DNA of 64,000 bases from Curtobacterium sp. UNCCL20 (GTDB taxonomy: Bacteria > Actinomycetota > Actinomycetes > Actinomycetales > Microbacteriaceae): NCBI RefSeq assembly GCF_900101675.1, contig NZ_FNKG01000002.1, positions 391,005 to 455,004 of the forward strand. Direction: 5' to 3'. How positions within the stretch are numbered: the stretch's first letter is position 1; every line of letters begins with the position of its first letter. Positions 48,442 through 50,419 of the stretch are shown here, in pieces. Position numbers and translations under genes: made by a program. The notes below the pieces were generated by a model. It worked only from the letters and a program-made list of their open reading frames with translations, did no database searches and was not told the DNA's origin.

Positions 48442-48449
48442 CGGGAAGT

Positions 48450-48477
48450 GTGACGAAACCGCTCCCCGCTCCGTCTC
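48450..48477 (+). promoter_or_regulatory. Candidate ECF-type promoter of the sigma operon
   Basis: GTGACG (48450-48455), a 16-bp spacer and CGTCTC (48472-48477) resemble ECF sigma promoters, which have a CGT-containing -10 and 16-17 bp spacing. It would give autoregulation by the sigma factor at 48730. A dyad GGGACCAC/GTGGTCCC (48486-48506) lies just downstream. Confidence 0.4.
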
Positions 48478-48522
48478 ATCGGTGCGGGACCACACCCGGT
48501 GGTCCCACACCGAGGAGCCACC

Positions 48523-48720
48523 ATGGACGAGATCGGCACCGCCCTGACCACCACCGCGACGGCCACGGCGAAGACCGCAGCCACCCCGCCGCAGCGCGAG
48601 CACAGCCGGACCGCGCCCCCGCACGTCGTGGCACAGGCCCGCGTCCGTTCCCTCGCCGCGCGCCCCGTGGGACCGATGAAGGTGCAGCGCGCCCAGGAGA
48701 ACCCCATCCACCACCAGTAG
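48523..48720 (+). CDS. Small basic protein of unknown function
   Basis: Not recognised. A 65-residue protein with a Thr/Ala-rich first half (TTTATATAKTAATPP) and a basic second half with several Arg, ending in IHHQ. The ATG at 48523 has GAGGAG 5-6 bp upstream, which supports translation. It is the first gene of the sigma/Asp23 operon, 9 bp before the sigma start. No membrane segment. It might be a regulator or chaperone of the sigma factor. Confidence 0.55.
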   Translation: MDEIGTALTTTATATAKTAATPPQREHSRTAPPHVVAQARVRSLAARPVGPMKVQRAQENPIHHQ

Positions 48721-48729
48721 AAGGAAACC

Positions 48730-49284
48730 GTGCCACACCAGCCCCTCACCGACCTCGACGACGCCGTCCTCGCAGGTCGCTCGTCCGACGGTGACGTGCG
48801 GGCGTTCGAGGTCCTCATCCGGCGGTACACGCCGCTGCTCCGCGCGTACGCCCGGCGTACCCTCGGCTCCACCGACGAGCTCGACGACGTCGTGCAGGAG
48901 ACCTTCATCACGGCGTGGAACCGGCTCGACGCGCTCGAGGACCAGGCGAAGGTGAAGTCGTGGCTGATGCGCATCCTCAGCCGGAAGTGCCTCGACCGGA
49001 TCCGCGCCCGCCGCGTGCACGACGACGTGACGGAGCTCGAGGTCGCCGCGCCGGCCGAGGACGCCCCGGAGCGCGTCGCCGAGGCCCGCTCGCGTGAGGA
49101 AGCCGTGGAGACGGCGCTCGCCGAACTGCCCGAAGCGCAGCGGCGGTGCTGGATCATGAAGGAAGTACTCGAGTACCGCTACGAGGAGATCGCCGAGGAA
49201 CTGGACCTCCCGACCTCGACCGTCCGTGGACTGCTGTCCCGGGCCCGCAAGAACATGATCCGTCTCATGGAGGGATGGCGATGA
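48730..49284 (+). CDS. ECF-type RNA polymerase sigma factor
   Basis: A 184-residue sigma-70 family protein. Region 2 is about 20-88 (FEVLIRRYTPLLRAYARRTLG, DELDDVVQETFITAWNRLD) and region 4 about 120-178 (LPEAQRRCWIMKEV, YRYEEIAEELDLPTSTVRGLLSRARK). GTG start with AAGGAAA. ATGA overlap with the Asp23-like gene downstream, whose N-terminus is anti-sigma-like. It probably directs an envelope stress response, given the Asp23 partners. Confidence 0.9.
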   Translation: MPHQPLTDLDDAVLAGRSSDGDVRAFEVLIRRYTPLLRAYARRTLGSTDELDDVVQETFITAWNRLDALEDQAKVKSWLMRILSRKCLDRIRARRVHDDVTELEVAAPAEDAPERVAEARSREEAVETALAELPEAQRRCWIMKEVLEYRYEEIAEELDLPTSTVRGLLSRARKNMIRLMEGWR

Positions 49285-49982
49285 CCGAACCAGACTCCGT
49301 CCGGCTCGACTCCCTCGAACCCGACGACCTCGACGGGCACACGATCGACGAGCTCGCCGACTACCTCGACGCCGGCATGCTGCCGGCCGACCCGACCATC
49401 GACGACTCCCCGGCGTGCCAGAACGCGCTCGCCGCGATCGTCCGCCTCCGACAGTCGTCCCTCGGTTCGCTCGACGCGGCCGCAGCGCAGGAGGCGCCGG
49501 CCGACGAGTCGTGGATCAGCGGTGTCCTCGCGAACATCTCGATCGAGGCGCGCGCCGGCCGTGACGTCCCGCTCCGCCCGGAGGCCCCGACCGAACGTCC
49601 GGTGATGACCGAGGGCGCGATCCGTTCACTCGTCCGGAGCGCCGGCGACGGCGTCCCGGACGCCCTCATCGCCCGGTGCGTGCTCGAGGGCGACGTCGTC
49701 GAGCTCGGTGCGCCCGTCCGGGTCGTCGTCGAGATCGCGGTGCGCGCCGGCGCGACGATCCCGGTCGTCGCAGCCACCGTCCGCGAGACGGTCGCCGAGG
49801 TGCTCGAGACCCAGACCGACCTGGTCGTCGAGTCGGTGGACGTGGTGGTCCGCGACCTGCTGCCCCCGACACCGGACGACGAGACGGACACGACGACCCC
49901 GACGGGCACGACGACCCCGACCGGCACGACGACCCCGACCGACACGACGAGCCCGATCGACGACGAGGAGGACCACGCATGA
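49281..49982 (+). CDS. Asp23/Gls24-like protein with anti-sigma-like N-terminus
   Basis: A 233-residue protein. Residues about 15-50 (TIDELADYLDAGMLPADPTIDDSPACQNAL) resemble the N-terminus of anti-sigma factors of this order but lack the HxxxCxxC zinc motif. Residues about 105-195 match Asp23 (ELGAPVRVVVEIAVRAGATIP, VVESVDVVVRDLLPP). The tail is a Thr/Pro repeat. The ATG at 49281 overlaps the sigma stop, with GGAGGG 6 bp upstream. Asp23 proteins lie under the envelope in Gram-positives. It may hold the sigma factor and report envelope stress. Confidence 0.75.
   Translation: MTEPDSVRLDSLEPDDLDGHTIDELADYLDAGMLPADPTIDDSPACQNALAAIVRLRQSSLGSLDAAAAQEAPADESWISGVLANISIEARAGRDVPLRPEAPTERPVMTEGAIRSLVRSAGDGVPDALIARCVLEGDVVELGAPVRVVVEIAVRAGATIPVVAATVRETVAEVLETQTDLVVESVDVVVRDLLPPTPDDETDTTTPTGTTTPTGTTTPTDTTSPIDDEEDHA
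49890..49961 (+). repeat. Four 18-bp tandem repeats coding a Thr/Pro tail
   Basis: Units ACGACGACCCCGACGGGC-like at 49890, 49908, 49926 and 49944 encode TTPTGT-type repeats. In-frame units make the tail length likely to vary among strains. Confidence 0.8.
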
Positions 49983-50287
49983 GCACCAGCGATGACACCC
50001 TGACCGCCGTCGAGGCAGCGGTCCTCGCGGTCCCCGGTGTCAGCGAGCTCTACCACGCGCGCCCGACCCTCAGCAGCACCATCGACGCCGCGAAGCGGCT
50101 CGCGACGCACACCTCGCTCGCACGCGTCGTCCTCGACGACGACGTCCTCCGCATCGTCATCGGGACCGACGGCGAACTCCCGGCACCGGAGACGGCGCGC
50201 GCCGCGCACCTCGCCGCACTCGCGGTGGCCGAGGCCCACGGCCTCGCGCTCAGCCGGGTCGACGTCCGCGTCGCGCGCGTCGGCTGA
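49979..50287 (+). CDS. Small Asp23-like protein
   Basis: A 102-residue protein. TAVEAAVLAVPGVSELYHARPTL, VVLDDDVLRIVIGTDGE and the end LSRVDVRVARVG follow the Asp23 core pattern of a GV turn, an IxIxG strand and a final VDVxV strand, in short form. ATGA overlap with the larger Asp23-like gene, so it is made from the same operon. A partner in an Asp23 assembly is the simplest guess. Confidence 0.65.
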   Translation: MSTSDDTLTAVEAAVLAVPGVSELYHARPTLSSTIDAAKRLATHTSLARVVLDDDVLRIVIGTDGELPAPETARAAHLAALAVAEAHGLALSRVDVRVARVG

Positions 50288-50300
50288 CGTCCGCCACCAC

Positions 50301-50352
50301 CCGACGGCCTGGAGGCACGTGGCGGCGCCGCCCCGCGCCTCCAGGCCGTCGG
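50301..50352. repeat. GGCCTGGAGGC-family palindrome, copy E (longest)
   Basis: A 52-bp palindrome with 26-bp arms and two mismatches (left arm CCGACGGCCTGGAGGCACG), 13 bp after the Asp23-like operon and before the convergent LtrA gene. Bidirectional terminator candidate. Confidence 0.85.
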
Positions 50353-50419
50353 CGGGTCACGTCGACGGCGGTGGCCCCGAGGCCGTCACCAGGTCGCGTC
50401 CGCAGCGGCACGCGGTGCG

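Follow-up and report, generated by a model that had tools for sequence, protein, structure and literature searches.

The ECF sigma factor groups closest by description to the system considered here are ECF286 and ECF292, which reportedly go back to the classification of Casas-Pastor et al. 2021. The passages of a 2022 review that deal with them state that both groups are found beside soluble proteins of the Asp23 family whose predicted role is that of an anti-sigma factor, leave this prediction aside for lack of experimental data, and give actinobacterial examples (Streptomyces rimosus and Mycolicibacterium cosmeticum; PMC8999054). The window, by which we mean the whole 64,000-nucleotide stretch of Curtobacterium sp. 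UNCCL20 DNA that was analysed, likewise holds an ECF sigma gene beside a gene for a soluble Asp23-family protein (a match at the Pfam threshold), the comparison being one of description with description. Unlike ECF286 and ECF292 as those passages describe them, the family found in the window has lost its zinc motif, is followed by a short Asp23-fold gene, has paralogues, and is linked to an Asp23 operon by a promoter motif. The earlier note on this DNA had not recognised the circuit as a described one; the same passages show that sigma factors of ECF286 and ECF292 beside Asp23 proteins had already been described, at the level of prediction (PMC8999054). Among the open-licence papers that were searched, we found no experimental study of such a sigma/Asp23-anti-sigma pair, and no mention of the lost zinc motif, of the short gene with the Asp23 fold, or of promoter and regulon.

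The C-terminal parts of class I anti-sigma factors of the ChrR, RsrA and RskA type are a cupin or a membrane anchor. The product of the gene at 49275 shares with ChrR, RsrA and RskA an N-terminal helical domain, the position of the Hx3Cx2C motif across helices 2 and 3, and a gene that overlaps that of the sigma factor; unlike them, it has two of the three zinc ligands replaced and carries a C-terminal Asp23 domain. The Asp23 protein of Staphylococcus aureus belongs to the SigB targets and is not known to carry an anti-sigma domain. The Asp23 fold is common to the window system and the Asp23/AmaP proteins of that species, and a canonical operon of the same Curtobacterium genome holds Asp23, a DUF2273-type gene and two AmaP-like genes (the latter scoring below cut-off); unlike in S. 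aureus, an Asp23 domain here forms part of a probable regulator. We consider it probable that the operon in the window is a self-regulated ECF sigma/anti-sigma unit controlling an Asp23 envelope operon, perhaps with the Asp23 domain as a reporter of the Asp23 layer. Gene order, gene overlap, domain ancestry and the shared promoter motif can be read from the sequences.

The operon lies on the plus strand, with a fucU-type gene on one side and a convergent LtrA-type gene on the other. It opens with an ECF-type promoter at 48449..48478 (TGTGACGAAA, a spacer and CGTCTCA), a 30-base motif match that contains the exact core and scores with the matrix described below. There follow genes for a basic protein of 65 residues without assigned function (48523..48720, a re-read ORF; K+R 8, D+E 4), for an ECF sigma factor with a GTG start (48730..49284), for a predicted anti-sigma factor of 235 residues (49275..49982), and for a shorter protein of 102 residues with an Asp23-like fold in its AlphaFold2 model (49979..50287), whose gene overlaps the preceding one by four bases. 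The anti-sigma gene has in-frame ATG codons at 49275 and 49281, which give a 10- or a 4-base overlap with the sigma gene, and the script that chose the start leans towards its training proteins. Between the operon and the LtrA-type gene stands a strong hairpin, a possible terminator (50301..50352, no strand assigned); the region 50285-50370 folds at -61.1 kcal/mol (z -5.1), and none of 200 shuffles was equally stable. The gene set proposed in the earlier note, namely a sigma gene, an overlapping Asp23-like gene, a shorter gene and a 65-residue basic protein, was thus recovered on re-reading 48523-50287, and the candidate ECF promoter that it placed in front was confirmed and sharpened to an exact core within a defined consensus.

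Chance or mis-called genes can be rejected as an origin of this arrangement, as the long protein was matched in 58/60 genus genomes (paralogues included) and the gene order is kept in relatives, the nearest named ones being Curtobacterium. The 65-residue protein has no match in Pfam or NCBIfam and no convincing paralogue in its own genome (next best E 0.25), and its conserved core, HxLAxxRxRxLxxRPxGPxxV, is confined to closer relatives. Its gene was considered as a general part of the operon and rejected: related small ORFs occur in only part of 36 loci, those nearer the window, and at several other Curtobacterium loci among the 36 the promoter lies closer to the sigma gene and no ORF of this type was seen. 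A single scan of viral contigs, made by pattern, brought up no relative of the system.

The 184 residues of the sigma factor contain Pfam Sigma70_r2 at 29-95 (E 2.6e-18) and Sigma70_r4_2 at 124-176 (E 3.7e-15), and TIGR02937, the sigma70-ECF family, is matched at 100.2 bits, where 42.9 would suffice; regions 2 and 4 alone, in about 180 residues, are what defines an ECF factor. Across loci L007-L035, the sigma is 87-93% identical.

The partner protein had been described as starting like an anti-sigma factor while lacking the zinc motif and any membrane helix, and each part of this description held. The AlphaFold2 model (mean pLDDT 87.7, pTM 0.55, alignment of 61 rows) shows N-terminal helices at 24-32, 40-43, 46-72 and 79-93, followed by an alpha-beta-beta-alpha-beta domain. 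The anti-sigma domain, residues 21-99 (49335..49571, delimited by the model and by stepwise profile matches), contains the decayed zinc motif T41-x3-S45-x2-C48 (49395..49418, from the alignment). Hx3Cx2C is present in 6/6 homologues of the same class outside the family and in 0/98 Microbacteriaceae sequences, two of which keep both cysteines (two duplicate loci, L040 and L041, being left out of the count). Profile comparison, with E-values that are those of single comparisons, finds the family domain related to the zinc form (probability 97.7, E 2.1e-12), which in turn matches a set of 30 zf-HC2 domains (probability 96.0, E 4.4e-9); five unrelated control profiles gave probabilities of 0.3 or below. 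The direct match of the family domain to zf-HC2 is weak (probability 44.9, E 2.2e-4), and the anti-sigma homology therefore rests on the zinc-bearing intermediate. Among the solved-structure matches listed for the long protein model there is no anti-sigma factor, a list that excludes nothing, being filled by matches to the Asp23 fold.

Passages of a study of class I anti-sigma factors describe a zinc motif that spans helices 2 and 3, with helix 1 binding sigma region 4 and helix 4 binding region 2, and the helix layout and motif position of our model agree with that description (PMC7406223). According to the same passages, Hx3Cx2C occurs in about 56% of class I anti-sigma domains, is missing from about 44%, and is not required (PMC7406223). 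In the 49275 protein, L27, Y30 and L31 of helix 1 and I88 of helix 4 are invariant over 61 sequences. Averaged over 19 residues, its hydropathy peaks at 1.67 (residues 151-169, within the predicted Asp23 fold), as compared with 2.76 for the DUF2273 membrane protein that served as a yardstick; values above 1.6 occur in 6/80 named homologues (the best 80 of 283), with a maximum of 1.91. Judged by its homology, the N-terminus is a class I anti-sigma domain that lost its zinc motif, and the protein as a whole is in all probability an anti-sigma factor. The earlier view that Asp23-like partners stand here "instead of a classical anti-sigma" must accordingly be revised, the partner being a derived class I domain joined to an Asp23 one.

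The Asp23 domain of the long protein comprises residues 110-198 (49602..49868; alpha-beta-beta-alpha-beta fold). Pfam Asp23 (PF03780) matches its residues 142-194 at E 7.3e-6 and 26.8 bits, and in a six-frame search of the genome the score was 28.3 bits; the cut-off is 28. The best solved match of this domain is the C-terminal domain of MamM (Z 10.4, 77 residues aligned, rmsd 1.9). The protein ends in an acidic, Thr/Pro-rich tail (49869-49979) with TTTPTG repeats, the length of which varies between relatives. The shorter gene that follows had also been called Asp23-like, a name that stands for its fold and its place in the operon and does not extend to Pfam, where an Asp23 match is absent. Its AlphaFold2 model (mean pLDDT 81.4) has the MamM C-terminal domain as best solved match too (Z 9.8, 74 residues aligned, rmsd 1.9), and since it shares its best solved matches with the long Asp23 domain, "Asp23-like" is fair at the level of fold. 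In another family of the class (locus L121), the gene in the position of the short gene encodes a Pfam Asp23 protein (E 8.5e-12), and there the sigma gene, a zinc-type anti-sigma gene, the Asp23 gene and a canonical Asp23 operon are consecutive on one strand. A sequence search of the PDB with canonical Asp23 gave nothing convincing (best E 0.055). The Asp23-type domains of the window resemble in fold the C-terminal domains of the metal transporters MamM and YiiP, and also a domain of EscJ/PrgK. These likenesses, seen in models, may bear on how Asp23 assembles.

The earlier note had called for a survey of gene order across Microbacteriaceae, and this survey bore out the arrangement. Among the named relatives, which are the best 80 of 283 and comprise 22 Curtobacterium-type loci (20 named Curtobacterium and two "Microbacteriaceae bacterium") and 58 others, the sigma gene lies directly upstream of the partner in 80/80, the two genes overlap in 72/80, and the short gene lies downstream of the partner in 78/80, in counts that treat related genomes separately and include some identical or nearly identical sequences (e.g. 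L131 and L132). In the same set (best 80 of 283), 46/58 loci outside the Curtobacterium type have a canonical Asp23 gene no more than 6 kb away, divergent in 31 of them; at Curtobacterium-type loci this is so in 1/22, and in none divergently. A second sample followed the ranking of the family list, leaving out genus members and one previously collected region; its 40 regions, from 36 genomes, contained the sigma gene in 40, the short gene in 32, an Asp23 gene in 32 (divergent in 24) and a DUF2273 or AmaP-like gene in 26. Of 20 earlier regions, 18 had been chosen for a neighbour of this kind and were kept out of these counts. Across genomes of the family, 81/199 gave a profile match, plain Asp23 matches included, and 118 gave none among the first-look candidates that were scored. 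The system is common across Microbacteriaceae, not universal. Within the genus, the two genomes without an anti-sigma match (G021 and G035) have only a distant canonical Asp23 copy, at 52% and 59% identity; genome G051 has the sigma/anti-sigma pair and an Asp23 copy of just 59%, and genome G034, 76% complete, has an Asp23 copy of 79% and an anti-sigma match of only 39%. The co-absence of the anti-sigma factor and a close Asp23 in the first two genomes is weak and may be explained by kinship.

A promoter motif was found to be shared in the first divergent sigma/Asp23 spacers that were inspected, and its consensus is YGTGACGAW-N14-CGTCTYA. Strict matches numbered 29, with flanking bases conserved although these had not been used in selection, and a scoring matrix was built from these sites. 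The genome, of 3.85 Mb, contains three copies of the exact core TGACGAA-N14-CGTCT, where base composition predicts about 0.12: in the window at 48451-48476 (C4:439455-439480), before the canonical Asp23 operon, where it sits 83-85 bases upstream, and at a paralogue locus. In front of this third site (C6:955616, minus strand) lie a 51-residue ORF and a ligase D gene of the opposite strand; it was rejected as the promoter of an Asp23 gene, since it faces none, and is probably a relic. Sites with one mismatch in the core number 36 more in this genome, as against 5 in all for a reversed-pattern control, so that the regulon may be larger.

In Curtobacterium, the sigma and Asp23 operons lie apart and the motif precedes both. 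Sites above 10 bits stand before 27/30 Curtobacterium sigma operons, 17 of these sites having been used in training; of 29 canonical Asp23 genes that were scored, 28 have a site of more than 15 bits between -82 and -87, which takes a GTGACTT form in six. The remaining gene is a paralogue of 52% identity, and one more locus, the thirtieth, was truncated. A matrix made from the 17 Curtobacterium sigma-operon sites placed 74/90 canonical Asp23 upstream regions from outside Curtobacterium above the 99th percentile of shuffles, as compared with 1/62, 0/59 and 1/55 control upstream regions. Upstream of non-Curtobacterium sigma genes, the motif was found in the sense direction in 36/107 and in the antisense direction in 72/107. 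With a sense site in just 36/107, autoregulation is not general outside Curtobacterium; the antisense excess, together with the 74/90 at Asp23, indicates that the motif there mainly faces the Asp23 operon.

The canonical operon of the window's own genome (C4 near 141-145 kb) encodes Asp23 (87.4 bits) and CsbD, both over their cut-offs, and products scoring below theirs: DUF2273 at 24.6 against 25.4, DUF6286 at 34.1 against 35, two AmaP-like proteins at 37.6 and 30.6 against 55, and a short Asp23 protein at 15.3 against 28. In other genomes, neighbouring genes carry the labels DUF2273, DUF6286, AmaP-like and CsbD as what we take them to be, one operon, that of the own genome, having then been scored. 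Two other canonical Asp23 genes of this genome have one weak variant site (11.3 bits) and no site, respectively. It is quite likely, judging from the motif, that the Asp23 operon is a target of the window sigma or its paralogues, and the sigma factor, the Asp23-type anti-sigma factor and the Asp23 operon look like one regulatory unit.

Paralogues complicate the assignment of the motif. A second set of sigma, Asp23-anti-sigma and short genes lies elsewhere in the genome (L036:6595-7795; G000:C6:949000-963000), and its sigma gene has kept region 4 and lost region 2; in each of ten genus genomes inspected, the counterpart is intact. A third sigma, near 53 kb of contig C4 (L037:5019-6272; G000:C4:48000-60000), is intact and 44% identical to the window sigma; it has no anti-sigma neighbour of the Asp23-fused kind and diverges from a canonical Asp23 gene with a GTGACTT-form site. 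With another intact sigma in the genome, the motif may not belong to the window sigma alone. Another Curtobacterium genome has a remnant (L050:4296-4786) in which the first ~61 residues of a sigma factor run into the partner's Asp23 half; what is missing is the remainder of the sigma factor together with the anti-sigma domain.

In the self-regulated unit that we propose, the partner would be a soluble anti-sigma factor whose zinc-less N-terminal class I domain clamps sigma regions 2 and 4; inhibition of the sigma by this domain, and use of the motif as the promoter of this sigma, would follow established ECF biology. The C-terminal Asp23 domain would report on the membrane Asp23 layer, probably by joining or leaving Asp23 assemblies, and the short Asp23-fold protein would perhaps take part in this reporting. 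Envelope stress, or too little Asp23 coverage, would free the sigma, which would then drive transcription of the operon that encodes it and of the Asp23-DUF2273-Asp23-DUF6286-AmaP-like operon; their products would bring back the off state. The role of the Asp23 domain as a sensor of the layer is a tentative suggestion. It is tempting to speculate further that this is a product-sensing circuit, in which the anti-sigma factor, having the same fold as the layer that the sigma makes, would join that layer, the sigma being released when coverage fails and recaptured when it is restored, and zinc being dispensable once the Asp23 domain senses; this version we regard as somewhat more doubtful.

Other readings of the locus deserve weight. 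Class I domains are known with various extra domains (in part after passages of PMC7406223), and the partner could be an ordinary anti-sigma factor whose Asp23 domain serves stability or dimerisation only, with a signal unrelated to Asp23. We see a sizeable minority chance of this, held down by a putative target operon that encodes the very same fold and by the short Asp23-fold gene, which accompanies the pair in 78/80 named loci (the best 80 of 283). It is distinctly unlikely that the fusion is a scaffold or positive cofactor, carrying the sigma to the membrane Asp23 layer or keeping it there, with activity set by transcription of the sigma gene: zinc anti-sigma domains are the ancestors of its N-terminal domain, and genes overlapping in this order are typical of sigma/anti-sigma pairs. 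A link to the envelope layer is suggested by the Asp23 domain and by the Asp23 operon nearby, and ECF factors without an anti-sigma factor exist, as seen in Table 2 of the 2022 review (PMC8999054).

The Asp23 operon might also be run by the other sigma, that near 53 kb of contig C4, leaving the window unit with another target or none. That sigma does adjoin another canonical Asp23 gene, and the paralogue pair of the genome has lost sigma region 2. We nevertheless think this improbable, because the window sigma is so closely conserved across L007-L035, its promoter is kept in 27/30 operons, and the site before the Asp23 gene that adjoins the other sigma is a weaker variant, with 11.3 as against 30.1 bits.

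For the proposed unit, a first condition in which it could act may be suggested by Curtobacterium aetherium, if its genes are the same: drying there is accompanied by a rise of an Asp23/Gls24 gene and of two sigma factor genes not further specified, according to the relevant part of that report (PMC12029717). In Streptomyces venezuelae, by the corresponding part of another report, one Asp23/Gls24 gene falls after ethanol shock, which counts against the proposed stress induction, the gene being one with no established tie to the window system (PMC9769785).

The roles of Asp23 proteins and the control of their amount are poorly understood. A recurring unit of sigma factor, anti-sigma factor and Asp23 with a defined promoter makes the question that was parked by the 2022 review genetically testable. 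In addition, the family shows stages in the loss of zinc ligands from an anti-sigma domain, with the gene pair retained. For the host, a soil and plant bacterium, the finding points to a stress switch apparently held off by an Asp23 fusion whose kin genes the sigma probably turns on.
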